From contig WGLR01000003.1 in NCBI GenBank assembly GCA_016125475.1, positions 133,945 to 197,944 of the forward strand: 64,000 nucleotides of DNA. Direction: 5' to 3'. Shown piece by piece: positions 50,337 through 55,859 of the stretch; the stretch's first letter is position 1, and each line of letters starts with the position of its first letter. The translations under genes were made by a program, and so were the position numbers. The DNA comes from Betaproteobacteria bacterium (lineage in GTDB: Bacteria; Pseudomonadota; Gammaproteobacteria; Burkholderiales; Ga0077523). Under the pieces are notes generated by a model. It saw only the letters and a program-made list of their open reading frames with translations. It had not been told where the DNA came from and ran no database searches.

Positions 50337-50832
50337 GCGGACGCCGGTGATCCCGTCGCTGCGATTCGTGCTCGCCCATCCGGCCCACGTGATCGCATTC
50401 GGATTCGGCTCGGGCCTGATCCGGCCGGCGCCCGGCACTGCCGGGACGCTCGTCGCTTTCCCGATCTTCTGGGCGCTCTCGCCGAGAATGTCGGACGGCG
50501 CATTCGCGCTGTTGCTGCTCGTCTCCTTCTGGGTCGGTGTCTGGGCATGCGGGCGGACCGGGCGCGCGCTCGGTGTCCACGACCACGGGGGGATCGTGGT
50601 CGACGAGATCGTGGCGTTCCTGGCCGTGCTGTTCATGATCCCGCACACGCTCGTCTGGCAGGCCGGCGGGTTCCTGCTGTTCAGGTTCTTCGACATCCTC
50701 AAGCCCGTGCCGATCCGCTACTATGACCGCACTCTGAAAGGAGGTCTGGGGGTGATGTTCGACGATCTTCTCGCCGCGCTGTACGCTTTGCTGGTGCTGG
50801 CGGTCTTCAGGATGGTGGTTCACGGATCATGA
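50320..50832 (+). CDS. pgpA: Phosphatidylglycerophosphatase A
   Basis: A 170-residue inner-membrane phosphatase forming phosphatidylglycerol from its phosphate. It contains LAHPAHVIAFGFGSGLIRPAPG and the motif GIVVDEIVAFL with FFDILKPVPIRYYD. The TTG start at 50320 is chosen because it gives the family N-terminus MTISAERTPVIPSLRF behind a G-rich site; GTG at 50347 is the alternative. pncC begins at 50829, overlapping its stop. Confidence 0.92.
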   Translation: MTISAERTPVIPSLRFVLAHPAHVIAFGFGSGLIRPAPGTAGTLVAFPIFWALSPRMSDGAFALLLLVSFWVGVWACGRTGRALGVHDHGGIVVDEIVAFLAVLFMIPHTLVWQAGGFLLFRFFDILKPVPIRYYDRTLKGGLGVMFDDLLAALYALLVLAVFRMVVHGS

Positions 50833-51332
50833 TCGACCAGGAACTCTTCGAACTCGCGGCGGCGGTGGGGCGGGTGCTCGGACAGCGCGGCGACACGCTC
50901 GCGTCGGCGGAATCCTGCACCGGCGGCTGGATTGGGCAGGTCGTCACCATGATTCCGGGCAGTTCCTCCTGGTACGACCGGGGGTTCATCACCTACAGCA
51001 ATGCATCGAAGCGCGCGGTGCTCGACGTGCGCGACGAGACGCTCGAGCGTCATGGCGCCGTGTCGGAACCTACCGTGCTCGAGATGGTGGAGGGCGCGTT
51101 GCGGCACAGCGACGCAGGCATGGCCGTGGCGGTGAGCGGTGTCGCGGGACCCGGCGGAGGCTCGGCCGAGAAGCCCGTCGGGACGGTGTGCCTGGCGTGG
51201 GGGCTTCGGGACGGGACGCGTGCCGTCCTCACGTGCCGCTTCGCCGGGGATCGGGATGCCGTGCGCAGGCAGACCGTGATTCGCGCACTGGAAGGCGTGA
51301 CGGACCTTGCCGGCAGGCCGGCGGTCGCCTGA
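50829..51332 (+). CDS. pncC: Nicotinamide-nucleotide amidase PncC (CinA C-terminal type)
   Basis: A 167-residue stand-alone CinA C-terminal domain that deamidates NMN. The signature ASAESCTGGWIGQVVTMIPGSS lies across residues 23-44, followed by VSGVAGPGGGSAEKPVGTV. It overlaps pgpA by ATGA. In most relatives recA follows directly; here two signalling genes on the opposite strand intervene. Confidence 0.94.
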   Translation: MIDQELFELAAAVGRVLGQRGDTLASAESCTGGWIGQVVTMIPGSSSWYDRGFITYSNASKRAVLDVRDETLERHGAVSEPTVLEMVEGALRHSDAGMAVAVSGVAGPGGGSAEKPVGTVCLAWGLRDGTRAVLTCRFAGDRDAVRRQTVIRALEGVTDLAGRPAVA

Positions 51333-51359: not shown

Positions 51360-52274
51360 TCACTCGATGAAGTAGCGAAGCTCCTCGGCGCCTTCGGACG
51401 AGGGGGGGTCGCCGAAGAAGATGCTGCCCTTGCCCTGGAGGACGGTTTCCTCCCGGTTCAGACGGACTTCCTCCCCGTCGTCGGGGCGCACGAACGTGCC
51501 GTTCGTGCTCGAGTCCTTCACGAAGAACTTGCCCTTGCGTGCTTCGATCCGGGCGTGATTGCGCGAAGCCCGGCGCGTCGAGAGGACGATCTGGTTCGTC
51601 GCGTCGCGTCCGATCGTGATGGTCCCGGACTCCACGCGCCAGCGATACGTTCCGAAGGTCAGTTCGAGCGCGGCCGTCGGGGCATTACCGCGCTGGGACA
51701 GCGTGCTGCCCACGAGTGTCAGGTCCGCTCCGAGATCCCATACCACCTCGTGGAGGCGGATCTCGGCGTTGCGCCCGCGCAGCGACGCGTGTCCGAGGGC
51801 GCGCACTCCGTACTTGAGATAGGCCGGCAGCGACCCGCACGCGGCGTCCCCCACGAGAATCTGGCCCGCGCTCGCGAGTGCGACGATCCTCGCAGCGACG
51901 TTCACGGTGTCGCCGAAGGCGTCGCCGTCACGGCGGATGACGGGCCCGGCGTGAAATCCGATCCGCAACGCCATGGGCATGTCGTTGACGGGCGGCAGGG
52001 CCCTCACGGCCGATTGCATCGCGCACGCCGCCAGCAGGGCCGCCCCGCTGTCCGGAAACACGCACATGATCTCGTCGCCGATCGTCTTGACGACCTCACC
52101 CTGGTAGGTCTCGGCCGCCTCGCGTGCCGCGGTCAGGCAGTTTCCGACCCGGCGGAGCGCCTCGGTGTCCCCGAACTGTTCGTACAGGCGAGTGCTGCCG
52201 GCAACGTCGGCGAACAGCACCGTGCTTTCCTCTGCGGTGGCGGCCACTTCTACGGTTTCAGCGGACTTAGACAT
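51360..52274 (-). CDS. Class III adenylate cyclase with C-terminal FHA domain
   Basis: A 304-residue protein. The cyclase domain (about residues 15-195) has the two metal Asp residues in LFADVAGST and TIGDEIMCVF, Lys before that second motif, and FGDTVNVAARI with the transition-state Asn and Arg, so it should be active, probably on ATP. The FHA domain (about 220-290) contains TIGRDATNQIVLST, SRNHARIE and DSSTNGTFV, typical of phosphothreonine binding. The ATG overlaps the kinase stop by 8 nt. The FHA probably docks to its co-translated kinase. Cytoplasmic; no membrane segment. Confidence 0.92.
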   Translation of the reverse strand: MSKSAETVEVAATAEESTVLFADVAGSTRLYEQFGDTEALRRVGNCLTAAREAAETYQGEVVKTIGDEIMCVFPDSGAALLAACAMQSAVRALPPVNDMPMALRIGFHAGPVIRRDGDAFGDTVNVAARIVALASAGQILVGDAACGSLPAYLKYGVRALGHASLRGRNAEIRLHEVVWDLGADLTLVGSTLSQRGNAPTAALELTFGTYRWRVESGTITIGRDATNQIVLSTRRASRNHARIEARKGKFFVKDSSTNGTFVRPDDGEEVRLNREETVLQGKGSIFFGDPPSSEGAEELRYFIE

Positions 52275-54669
52275 TCTGTGCGCGAATCGCCAGGACGGCC
52301 TGGTTCCGGAGCGTCTTAAGCAAGGACAGTTCCTCCGGGCCGAACGCGAGCTTCCCGGGTTCGTCATTATCTCCATAGAGCAGTGCGACGGGCTTTTTGT
52401 TCAACAGAATCGGAAACAGCGCGAGCGACCGCCCGGATACGGCGGTTCGATACCAGTTGGGTATGTGCGCGCGGATCTTCGGATTGTCGACGTCCTCGAT
52501 GTAGATGTCGGCACCCTGCGCGAGCGCCGCGTGAAAGATGTCCTTCGCGGGAGCGAGCGGTACCGAGAATCCGCGACGCACGAGTTCGTCCGACCCCTGT
52601 CCGAGGCCCAGCCGGCTCTTCAGGGAATTCGAGGCGGGGTCCCTGATCAGGAGCAGGACGCGCGTGAAACCCGCCCCGCGGTACATGGTCTCGACCACGA
52701 TGCGGAACAGGTCGTTCAGCTGGAACTTGCCCACGAGGGCGTTCGTGATGTCCTGAATGCCGGCGGTCAGCACCGCCTTTCGTTTGGTGACTTCGACGCC
52801 CACGGGCCGGTTGGCCTCTTCTTCCGTCGGCTCGCGGTCGTTGAGGGCGGTCTCGGCGAGCGTCGCCGCGATCTCGTCGATCTCCTGCGTCTCGGTGAAC
52901 TGACGCGACCAGGACACCGCGCGCTCGAAGAACGGGCTCGCGGTGGTCTTCAGGTCGAGCGCTGCCGCGTCCCGCGAGATGGCCGCGATCGTCTTGCCCA
53001 CGGCCGCGATGATGCTGCCCTGCTTGATGCCGAGCACCGGCCGGAACCGCTCCTCGACGGCCAGGAGTTCCCCCGCGCGCGCACTCTCCGGCGCGAAGCG
53101 GATCGCGTCCGTGATGCCTGCCGACAGGCCTGCCACGAGGCGCAGCCGTTCCCCGTCGCTGGCGGGCATGTGCAGTTCGTCCTCGGTCACGGCCCTGATG
53201 CTCTGGAGCACGGCGTCGGGAAAGTGCCAGGACCTCGCGACCCCCATGCCCAGGTCATCCAGGGGAGTCCCCAGAATCTGCATGGCGGCAGCGGCCTCGT
53301 CCATGCCCGAGTGCCGGAGCTTCTGGATCTCGACGAACTCCTCGTGGAAGTAGAAGGCCGTGAGCAGACGGCCCAGCTTGTGGAACATGGCGCAGATGAA
53401 TGCTTCCTCGCCGTCCCGCAGACCGACCGTTCCCGCGAGCGACCGTCCCATCACCGCCGTGAAATACGCAGCCAGGATCTCGTCCCGGAGGTCGGCGGCC
53501 TGCGACTTGTTCTGAAGATGGTCGAACAGCATGAGGCTGATCGCGATGGACCGGACCTGGTCGAACCCCATGACCATGATCGCGCGGGAGACGGTCGAGA
53601 TGCCGCGCCCGAACTGGCCGTAGTGCGCGGTGTTCACGAGCTTGAGCAGCTTGTTCGTCATCGCGAAGTCCTTGAGGATCGTGCCGGACAGTGCGGCGAC
53701 GCCCTCCTTGTCGGACCTCACGGCCTTGCTCACGGTCGAGATCGTGCCGGACAGTGCCGGAAAGTCGCTCTTCACGCGCATGCGCCGGAGCAGGAATTCG
53801 AGCGTGCCCGACGTCGCCTCGGACTTGTCGATCGGCGCCGGAGCGGGCTTCAGGTAGACCTCGAGCGCTTCGGCCATGGCCTGCGCGGACTCGTAACGGT
53901 CGTCGGGGTTCTTCGCGAGCGCGCGCATCACGATCGCATTCAGGCGCTCGTCGACGCTGTCGGTCCGGGTCGACGGCGCACGGAACTTCCCTGTCGACAC
54001 CTTGTGCAGGAGTTCCCAGACCGTCCGCCCCGTGACTGCCGGTTCGCCCACCAGCATCTCGTAGAGCATCATGCCCACGGAGAAGACGTCGGACCTGGGC
54101 GAGAACGACCGGTTCGCGATGTATTCGGGGGCGGTATAGGCGGGGGTGCCATGGAAGCCTTCGTCGCTGGCATCCTTGGTGGAGATCAGCGCGGCGATCC
54201 CGAAATCCATGATCCTCGCGACGCCTTCCTCCGTCAGCATCACGTTGCCGGGCTTCAGGTCGCGGTGGACGACGCCCTTCTGGTGCGCGAACTCGACGCC
54301 CTTGAGAACCTGAATCGCGATCTCGCACGCGCGAATCGGGGCGATGGCCGTTTCCTCGCGCAGCACCGCGGCGAGCGTGTGCCCCGGCACGAACTCGAAG
54401 ACGAGGTACGGCTGACTGCCATCTTGGCCCGCATCGAACAGCGTGACGATGTTCGGGTGGACGAGCCGGCTCATCATGACGGCTTCGTCGAGGAGCGTCT
54501 GCATCCCGTCCCGTGCGTCGGCACCGGCAACCTCGATCGTCTTGATGGCCACATCGCGCCGGAGCTGCGGGTCGTGCGCGAGCCAGACGGAGCCCTGTGT
54601 GCCGCGCCCGAGCGGGCGCAGCACCTCGAATCGGCCGATACGTTGCGCGGTCTGGGGTAGTGAAGCCAT
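52267..54669 (-). CDS. Ser/Thr protein kinase - HDOD - GAF signalling protein
   Basis: An 800-residue multidomain protein. The N-terminal Hanks-type kinase (about 13-270) has LGRGTQGSVWLA, Lys43, HRDLKPGN with Asp137, DFG at 155-157, and PEYI in the activation region, so it looks active. A HDOD domain covers about 300-500 (LKLVNTAHYGQFG and AMFHKLGRLLTAF). A linker follows, then a GAF-like domain about 640-795. There is no membrane segment, so it is soluble. It sits upstream of and overlaps the adenylate cyclase-FHA gene on the same strand. No phosphatase gene is adjacent. Confidence 0.93.
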   Translation of the reverse strand: MASLPQTAQRIGRFEVLRPLGRGTQGSVWLAHDPQLRRDVAIKTIEVAGADARDGMQTLLDEAVMMSRLVHPNIVTLFDAGQDGSQPYLVFEFVPGHTLAAVLREETAIAPIRACEIAIQVLKGVEFAHQKGVVHRDLKPGNVMLTEEGVARIMDFGIAALISTKDASDEGFHGTPAYTAPEYIANRSFSPRSDVFSVGMMLYEMLVGEPAVTGRTVWELLHKVSTGKFRAPSTRTDSVDERLNAIVMRALAKNPDDRYESAQAMAEALEVYLKPAPAPIDKSEATSGTLEFLLRRMRVKSDFPALSGTISTVSKAVRSDKEGVAALSGTILKDFAMTNKLLKLVNTAHYGQFGRGISTVSRAIMVMGFDQVRSIAISLMLFDHLQNKSQAADLRDEILAAYFTAVMGRSLAGTVGLRDGEEAFICAMFHKLGRLLTAFYFHEEFVEIQKLRHSGMDEAAAAMQILGTPLDDLGMGVARSWHFPDAVLQSIRAVTEDELHMPASDGERLRLVAGLSAGITDAIRFAPESARAGELLAVEERFRPVLGIKQGSIIAAVGKTIAAISRDAAALDLKTTASPFFERAVSWSRQFTETQEIDEIAATLAETALNDREPTEEEANRPVGVEVTKRKAVLTAGIQDITNALVGKFQLNDLFRIVVETMYRGAGFTRVLLLIRDPASNSLKSRLGLGQGSDELVRRGFSVPLAPAKDIFHAALAQGADIYIEDVDNPKIRAHIPNWYRTAVSGRSLALFPILLNKKPVALLYGDNDEPGKLAFGPEELSLLKTLRNQAVLAIRAQNV

Positions 54670-54839
54670 GTGCGCTACATCGGCGCAGGGTTGTTGTTCT
54701 TTATGGTGACGGTGTGATGCCGCCGCAACCGACTTTTCGGGAAATCACTGAAAAATCAGCATAAAGGAGCCGGGCATCGGCGAGATCGTTGTGCCATAAT
54801 CCGCTTTCTTCCAGATTATTCCGTCGAAAGCGCATGCCC

Positions 54840-55859
54840 ATGGACGACAACAAAGCGAAGGCACTTGCCGCCGCCCTTTCCCAAATCGAGAAGCAGTTCG
54901 GCAAAGGGTCGATCATGCGTCTCGGCGAGAACGACGTTTCCTCCGACATCCAGGTCGTGTCGACGGGCTCCCTCGGTCTGGACCTCGCGCTCGGGATCGG
55001 CGGCCTCCCGCGCGGCCGCGTCGTCGAGATCTACGGTCCCGAGTCGTCGGGCAAGACCACCCTCACGCTGCAGGTGATCGCCGAGGCCCAGAAGGTCGGC
55101 GGCACGGCGGCATTCATCGACGCCGAACACGCACTCGACCCCCAGTACGCGAGGAAGCTCGGCGTCCAGGTGGAAGACCTCCTGATTTCGCAGCCGGACA
55201 ATGGCGAGCAGGCGCTCGAGATCGCGGACATGCTCGTCCGGTCCGGTTCCGTCGACGTCGTGGTCGTCGACTCGGTGGCGGCCCTCACGCCGAAGGCCGA
55301 GATCGAGGGCGAGATGGGCGACCAGTTGCCGGGCCTGCAGGCCCGGCTCATGAGTCAGGCGCTTCGCAAGCTGACGGCGAACATCAAGCGGTCGAACACT
55401 CTCGTCATCTTCATCAACCAGATCCGGATGAAGATCGGCGTCATGTTCGGCAATCCGGAGACCACGACGGGCGGCAATGCCCTCAAGTTCTACTCGTCGG
55501 TCCGGATCGACATCCGGCGGACGGGCGCCATCAAGAAGGGCGAGGAAGTGATCGGCAGCGAAACCCGCTGCAAGGTCGTGAAGAACAAGGTGGCTCCCCC
55601 GTTCCGGCAGGCCGAGTTCGACATCCTCTACGGCGAGGGCATCTCGCGCGAAGGCGAGATCCTGGAACTCGGCGTGGCGAACCGGATCGTGGACAAGTCC
55701 GGTGCGTGGTACGCATACAAGGGCGAAAAGATCGGACAGGGGAAGGACAATGCCCGCGAATTTCTCAGGGAACACGGCGACATCGCTCGCGAGATCGAGA
55801 ATCAGATCCGTCAGGCGTCGGGCGTGATGGCGCCGGAGGCGGTCGCGGAGGAAGACTGA
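54840..55859 (+). CDS. recA: Recombinase RecA
   Basis: A 339-residue DNA recombinase and LexA coprotease. The Walker A loop is GPESSGKTT near residue 65, followed by [13 protein letters not shown] and [13 protein letters not shown]. The C-terminal tail is slightly acidic. The ATG at 54840 (MDDNKAKAL) is the usual start, but an ATG two codons earlier at 54834 is equally possible. No clear LexA box was found upstream. recX and alaS follow. Confidence 0.97.

Follow-up and report, generated by a model that had tools for sequence, protein, structure and literature searches.

A kinase-HDOD-GAF and cyclase-FHA gene pair with a flagellar-type promoter motif and a conserved linker threonine

We examined a 64,000-nucleotide (nt) stretch of betaproteobacterial DNA (contig WGLR01000003.1, positions 133,945 to 197,944; hereafter the window) in which a gene for a kinase-HDOD-GAF protein (KHG) overlaps one for a class III cyclase joined to an FHA domain (cyclase-FHA). 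The reading we favour, which we consider about evenly poised between right and wrong, is that both genes belong to a single operon in the flagellar (FliA) regulon and that the KHG kinase phospho-switches its partner cyclase through linker residue Thr186 and the FHA domain. This sigma-28 (FliA) operon would make a soluble signalling module, with KHG acting as an active Hanks-type kinase and its HDOD and GAF domains likely serving as sensors. KHG, or a related kinase, would phosphorylate the cyclase at Thr186, and the FHA domain would bind phosphothreonine 186, either within one chain or across the cyclase dimer, thereby changing, in one direction or the other, the output of a cyclic nucleotide that is probably cyclic AMP (cAMP). 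All parts belong to known families, and the combination of a kinase, an FHA-linked class III cyclase and a flagellar-type promoter appears to be new.

A kinase and a cyclase with intact active sites

KHG (800 amino acids (aa); window positions 52267-54669, minus strand) and cyclase-FHA (304 aa; 51360-52274, minus strand) were delineated from open reading frames (ORFs) and Pfam matches, the ATG of the latter overlapping the KHG stop by 8 nt. KHG comprises Pkinase (residues 14-266, 7e-55), HDOD (PF08668; residues 304-494, 4e-34, 118.4 bits against a gathering score of 22.9) and GAF_2 (residues 651-795, 2.5e-7) domains, and cyclase-FHA comprises Guanylate_cyc (residues 13-170, 7e-17, 62 bits against a gathering score of 21.9) and FHA (residues 219-280, 1.5e-13). 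A preliminary description of the window, made from the sequence alone, had reported this overlapping pair as well as intact catalytic and FHA residues; the architecture is real, and the domain reasoning was sound.

The hallmark residues of Hanks-type Ser/Thr kinases (Lys, Glu, HRD Asp, Asn and DFG Asp) are all present in KHG, and Lys43, Glu62, His135, Asp137, Asn142 and Asp155 are invariant in 39/39 KHGs; these residue counts (n=39) and the tree below cover KHGs with loci rather than every full-length match in the order. The activation-loop residue Thr175 is Thr in 37 of the 39 and Ser in two, and Thr607, in the HDOD-GAF linker, is kept in 27. Each class III cyclase hallmark (two metal Asp, a Lys/Asp specificity pair, Asn and Arg) is retained in at least 62 of 66 cyclase-FHA proteins (Asp23 in 66, Lys63 in 65, Asp67 in 62, Asp118 in 65, Asn125 in 66, Arg129 in 64), and the FHA phosphothreonine-binding residues Arg223, Ser237, His240 and Asn258 are each present in 66/66. 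The catalytic, specificity and binding roles given to these alignment columns are those that we take to be general to the respective families. The predicted structure of cyclase-FHA alone was useless (predicted local distance difference test, pLDDT, 35), and that of KHG with seven relatives (pLDDT 74.5, predicted template modelling score, pTM, 0.40) was poor at residues 299-387.

A sigma-28-type motif at a fixed distance from KHG

Sigma-28 promoters have the consensus TAAAG-N13-15-GCCGNTAA. Near KHG and on its strand, the gap between KHG and recA contains conserved boxes TAAAG and GCCG that lie 14-15 nt apart, which is the geometry of sigma-28 promoters. In the window this motif, 5' of the KHG-cyclase operon, reads TAAAG-N14-GCCGATGT (54677-54703, minus strand; G000:C26:188621-188647:- in genome coordinates), lies 7 nt before the ATG, and agrees with the consensus at 10/12 positions, which makes it a two-mismatch site; 0/2000 dinucleotide shuffles gave as good a site at 5-9 nt before the ATG. 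The same restricted test on 14 KHGs, namely 13 of the recA-linked clade described below and one (L022) of its sister group, found between 0 and 33 of 2000 shuffles as good. When 200 nt were scanned without restriction, 13 of this clade's 15 KHGs, among them a copy located away from recA (G010), had their best site 6-8 nt ahead of the ATG, and the remaining two (the near-copies L010 and L011) had an equal score elsewhere in the 200 nt. In four family groups, 6-8 nt separate the end of the -10-like box from the KHG start (54677-54684 in the window, with the ATG at 54669), so that a leaderless transcript is predicted. Sites scoring at least 10/12 within 150 nt occurred in 17/39 KHGs, which are not independent of one another, versus 1.1% of shuffles, and in 0/55 cyclase-FHA genes outside KHG operons. 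In five KHGs of family f50 the motif lies 31-91 nt upstream, and many other KHGs have no motif.

Within the window's genome, nine of the 18 one-mismatch sites precede motA, a CheW-REC (cheV-like) gene, or genes for a methyl-accepting chemotaxis protein, a GGDEF protein, HDOD proteins (two), Hpt proteins (two) and a histidine kinase, and at the other nine the next ORF is unrelated or unmatched. Five of 12 two-mismatch sites precede genes for flagellin, a second kinase-HDOD protein, a GGDEF-EAL protein, a histidine kinase and a T2SSE ATPase, and the other seven precede none of these. This survey covered 18/18 one-mismatch and 12/54 two-mismatch sites with mechanically guessed ORF starts; the first 10 ORFs (nine one-mismatch, one two-mismatch) were chosen for length, and the remaining nine one-mismatch and 11 two-mismatch ones followed. 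Two GGDEF genes of this genome follow such motifs, and the presence of both HDOD and GGDEF genes behind them hints at an HDOD/cyclic di-GMP (c-di-GMP) branch in the flagellar regulon. The genes concerned are two stand-alone HDOD genes (L241 on C20, L248 on C44) and a GGDEF gene (L243 on C36). The second kinase-HDOD gene (L253, C1:181295-183085) lies in a 1428-aa open frame and is 32% identical to KHG; its motif (G000:C1:183141-183167) stands 22 nt before the guessed start.

The distribution of FliA points in the same direction. The window's genome encodes FliA (276 bits, cut-off 190), FlhA and flagellin, and across the order FliA was detected in 79/85 genomes with KHG versus 123/215 without it (Fisher 2e-10, kinship ignored). 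The cyclase-FHA family showed no such link to FliA (46/65 genomes with and 156/235 without cyclase-FHA). Four of the KHG genomes without FliA are G276, with FlhA, and G203, G267 and G290, without it; two more are discussed below. G161 has FliA and no FlhA match. Taken together, the positioned motif, its company within the same genome and the co-occurrence with FliA suggest that the KHG-cyclase unit most likely belongs to the flagellar regulon, which would direct attention to the physiology of motile versus sessile cells rather than to DNA damage.

A conserved threonine in the cyclase-to-FHA linker

Across the alignment of 66 cyclase-FHA proteins, the linker between the cyclase and FHA domains is variable except around a [D/E]-x-T motif, the threonine of which (Thr186 in the window; codon 51717-51719, minus strand) is the proposed phospho-switch site. 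Position 186 is Thr in 60 proteins and Ser in four, position 184 (-2) is D or E in 49, and, by our reading of the alignment, the first conserved FHA position comes 17 residues after Thr186. The +2 and +3 positions are mostly Val, Met, Ala, Ile or Leu, largely fitting the hydrophobic requirement of known self-binding tails. The preliminary description had missed this threonine, along with the sigma-28-type motif and the FliA association.

In GarA, OdhI and DgcB the FHA domain binds a Thr of the protein's own tail with Glu at -2, in a motif listed as hydrophobic at -3, Ser at +1, and hydrophobic at +2 and +3 (available part of PMC6733907). Bdellovibrio DgcB is among the closest known systems: as described there, an FHA domain gates its cyclase, which seems to be switched on by the protein's own tail bearing Thr14, ~18 residues before the FHA domain, and locking the tail onto the FHA domain by a disulfide gave high c-di-GMP output (PMC6733907). 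Both proteins have an FHA domain with intact binding residues beside a second-messenger cyclase, and both have a conserved Thr ~17-18 residues from the first FHA strand with an acidic residue at -2. They differ in that DgcB has a GGDEF (c-di-GMP) rather than a class III cyclase, carries its tail and FHA domain at the N-terminus whereas the linker and FHA domain follow the cyclase here, and does not share its residues at -3 and +1 of the motif. The operon of cyclase-FHA includes a kinase gene, whereas the kinase of DgcB is not identified in the available part of PMC6733907. The resemblance between the linker threonine and the tails that GarA, OdhI and DgcB bind through their own FHA domains is partial.

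The FHA domain matched GarA and OdhI by profile in a PDB search, and these proteins, which are phosphorylated by Ser/Thr kinases, also have an acidic residue two before the Thr that they bind; unlike cyclase-FHA, they have no cyclase domain. GarA and OdhI regulate metabolic enzymes. The [D/E]-x-T motif was seen in none of six FHA-less cyclase domains compared, some of which were cut by locus ends; since these belong to other subfamilies, a structural role for Thr186 is possible.

Cyclase-FHA proteins adjoin more than one kind of kinase

The cyclase-FHA family was detected in 65/300 genomes of the order (E-value <= 1e-25), in 33/85 with and 32/215 without KHG. At 17 of 50 loci outside the KHG group (cyclase-FHA genes or clusters, mainly higher-ranked matches, with KHG loci and the split gene L103 set aside), a Ser/Thr kinase lies within 600 base pairs (bp), and kinase density near these 50 loci was 0.28 per kilobase (kb) versus 0.017 farther out, a ~17-fold difference. 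Fourteen of the 17 pairs are arranged tail to tail and three (L093, L099 and L107) in the same direction, the L099 kinase being, by coordinates, upstream of cyclase-FHA on the same strand. The 10 of these 17 kinases that were scanned have Pkinase and neither HDOD nor GAF domains, indicating that the kinase partners of cyclase-FHA are of more than one kind. The tail-to-tail loci include L115, L116, L122-L125, L128, L136 and L144, with only kinase-type Pfam domains in the seven kinases scanned.

A search of genomes for KHG next to cyclase-FHA, suggested in the preliminary description, recovered the arrangement at 10 of 39 KHG loci (~1.5 kb flank, some ended by a contig edge); none was seen in the flanks of the remaining loci, and the reading of KHG as a cyclase-specific partner was rejected. 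Because the cyclase-FHA family is so common in the order, a single biochemical experiment would bear on many kinases that have yet to be studied.

A second cyclase-FHA in the window's genome (G000:C7:27564-28412; L107:13543-15994) is 37% identical to the first and comes directly after another Ser/Thr kinase; ~9 kb from it is a 1370-aa open frame with a divergent cyclase domain (L007). In family f6, cyclase-FHA genes occur in tandem (L064, L068, L132 and L137); the linker of the upstream copy is longer by two inserted residues, and L132 has Glu in place of the second metal Asp.

History of the site between pncC and recA

The pair lies between pncC (50829-51332, plus strand) and recA (54834-55859, plus strand; divergent from KHG), with thiL, pgpA and pncC to one side and recA, recX and alaS beyond KHG; all six genes read on the plus strand, opposite to the pair. 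The GC content of the pair is 0.66-0.68, against 0.67 for the window. The preliminary description recognised this opposite-strand position, which we confirmed, and took it to suggest insertion.

Twelve genomes of the genus were compared. In eight, pncC, cyclase-FHA, KHG and recA lie on a single stretch; in a ninth (G011), pncC and cyclase-FHA are followed by the end of KHG, where the contig stops; and one (G003) could not be placed in either state. The site is empty in G004 and G010, where pncC directly precedes recA (gap of 194-210 nt); G010 has KHG elsewhere in its genome, with no cyclase-FHA nearby. In G007, G008 and G009 (loci L270, L271 and L272) the pncC-to-cyclase gap is ~2.9 kb and in G007 holds a PAS-GAF-GGDEF-EAL gene (L270:2626-5250); the site therefore gathers further signalling genes.

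Full-length KHG was found in 85/300 genomes of the order (E-value <= 1e-130). By coordinates, KHG is divergent to recA within ~1 kb in 14 of 80 genomes, 79 with a KHG and 77 with a recA match; these 80 were drawn from 89 chosen genomes by leaving out G003, G011, G145, G148, G152, G182, G247, G270 and G290. The 14 comprise the eight congeners, G034 and G161 (f24), G049, G093 and G171 (f39), and G156 (f19). Outside the genus, KHG and cyclase-FHA both lie beside recA in G093 (where pncC is absent from that contig end) and G156, and KHG alone does so in G034, G161, G049 and G171. At least seven KHGs (L147-L153) were among 80 loci kept from a wider contig scan that was dominated by generic kinase motifs; among the matches listed, none of the seven had recA in the flanks available. 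A viral scan yielded one cyclase, in which no FHA domain was detected.

In a tree of 42 KHGs, the recA-linked copies and the G010 copy form one clade (support 94/90, just under the starred level), and the recA-linkage label changes twice. This clade spans four family groups; most simply, KHG would have reached recA once, before those groups parted. In a quick tree, the G093 cyclase clusters with those of the genus and with two from f35, and the G156 cyclase falls elsewhere on a long branch; a single clade of KHG-partner cyclases including that of G156 was not rejected (approximately unbiased test, p-AU 0.09). The cyclase would have been added to KHG later, perhaps more than once, or lost repeatedly. 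The unit as a whole looks like an old member of the lineage whose place beside recA probably carries no functional meaning.

Tandem full-length KHG copies occur in families f15 and f25 (L026 in G025, and in G248 and G285).

Weighing of alternative explanations

Several observations weigh against a FliA-regulated phospho-switch. The most serious is that G093 and G156 have neither FliA nor FlhA, yet carry the pair and the motif (11 and 12 of 12 positions); G093 is 97% complete, making an assembly gap a less likely reason for its missing FliA, and the absence of an RpoD-like match in G156 suggests that this assembly may have gaps. Genome-wide, motif sites numbered 72, versus 99 for a reversed-pattern control, so there is no enrichment; the sites counted may include non-intergenic ones, and downstream genes were tallied for motif sites alone. 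Support thus comes from the position and company of the motif and not from its count. The FliA statistic ignores phylogeny, and a -10 box ~7 nt before the ATG would give the leaderless transcript mentioned above. As for the switch, two linker positions do not follow the GarA/OdhI/DgcB motif, namely -3, where D/E prevails over hydrophobic residues, and +1, where Met/Thr prevails over Ser; Thr186 could be structural rather than regulatory, and 33/50 cyclase-FHA loci have no kinase within 600 bp.

The main competing mechanism is the one put forward in the preliminary description, in which KHG autophosphorylates, at Thr175 or in the HDOD-GAF linker, and the cyclase FHA domain docks there, recruiting or activating the cyclase. 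We consider it unlikely, if still a serious contender. It draws on the 66/66 conservation of the FHA residues, on Thr175 and, to a lesser extent, Thr607 in KHGs, on the gene overlap, on cyclase-FHA proteins beside kinases of other architectures, and on the partial fit of the linker to known self-binding motifs, but leaves the near-invariant threonine of the cyclase's own linker unexplained, and Thr607 also occurs in KHGs without a cyclase neighbour. The general idea that the FHA domain couples kinase to cyclase gains from the kinase adjacency at 17/50 loci, while the linker threonine offers another route than kinase docking; we prefer the cyclase phospho-switch, and both may occur. A looser alternative, that KHG and cyclase-FHA merely share a promoter as regulon members and each works with other partners, would explain why so few KHG loci hold cyclase-FHA (10/39) and why most other cyclase-FHA loci lack a close kinase. 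It seems improbable given the ~17-fold kinase density and the possibility that cyclase-FHA joined KHG more than once, with the G156 cyclase outside the clade (p-AU 0.09).

Two further explanations concern the genomic position. A DNA-damage module in which the divergent layout co-regulates kinase, cyclase and recA could account for KHG being divergent to recA in four family groups. We regard it as very improbable: KHG carries a separate motif on its side of the ~160-nt gap, lies at recA in only 14/80 genomes by coordinates, and in G010 retains a similar motif (score 9) away from recA. Inspection by eye, rather than a formal scan, of the KHG-recA gaps of 14 loci showed no obvious CTGT-N8-ACAG (LexA) box. 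A recent horizontal gain, with a two-gene cassette inserted between pncC and recA, would fit the empty site in two congeners and the 66/80 genomes with no KHG at recA. It has hardly any probability left and is already largely refuted, given the single KHG clade over four family groups (94/90), the pair at this site in 9/12 congeners, and a GC content like that of the window. The comparison of pncC-recA neighbourhoods proposed in the preliminary description thus did reveal a pair-free run (G004 and G010), and within the genus placed the pair beside recA in most relatives, the very outcome named there as telling against insertion.

Relation to known systems

FHA domains joined to class III cyclases are known from Synechocystis Cya1 and others, a likeness that we draw from their general description; there the FHA domain is N-terminal, and we know of no kinase operon for this type. 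In searches of the open-licence literature, no paper among those listed described a class III cyclase linked to an FHA domain and sharing an operon with its kinase. A close co-occurrence of FHA proteins with Ser/Thr kinases in bacterial genomes is reported (available part of PMC2176072). Coupling of a Hanks kinase to a class III cyclase, as proposed here, is also seen in the TOMM kinase/cyclase fusion (TIGR03903) and Myxococcus xanthus PKN2 (kinase plus guanylate cyclase; PMC1262709), which are single fused chains, whereas KHG and cyclase-FHA are separate. Scores against TIGR03903 were 158.5 bits for KHG and 20.5 for cyclase-FHA, far below its cut-off of 705.75.

SadB and GsmR are HDOD proteins that influence motility or the expression of flagellar genes, a setting like that proposed for KHG, and SadB is reported to bind c-di-GMP (PMC6543031, in part). 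SadB has a YbaK-like domain and no kinase, whereas KHG has kinase and GAF domains, which the available part of PMC6543031 does not mention for SadB or GsmR. By analogy, c-di-GMP input to KHG through its sensors is a reasonable guess. More broadly, and only tentatively, a flagellum-regulated kinase may switch a class III cyclase via the latter's own phospho-linker, many kinases of the order may do likewise, and HDOD/GAF input, of c-di-GMP or another ligand, may tie two second messengers to flagellar assembly. If true, the linker-threonine/FHA switch would be a simple route from protein phosphorylation to cyclic nucleotides.

Additional observations on recA

Regulation of recA may be unusual here, a canonical LexA box not having been seen by eye. 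The recA gaps of the genus contain a TTGAA-like element ~40 nt upstream of an ATAAT-type -10 box (window ~54748-54800; L009-L015 and L088). In the 97% complete genome G093, recA (L108:3827-4819) contains one in-frame TGA, reflecting either a sequencing error or a broken gene.

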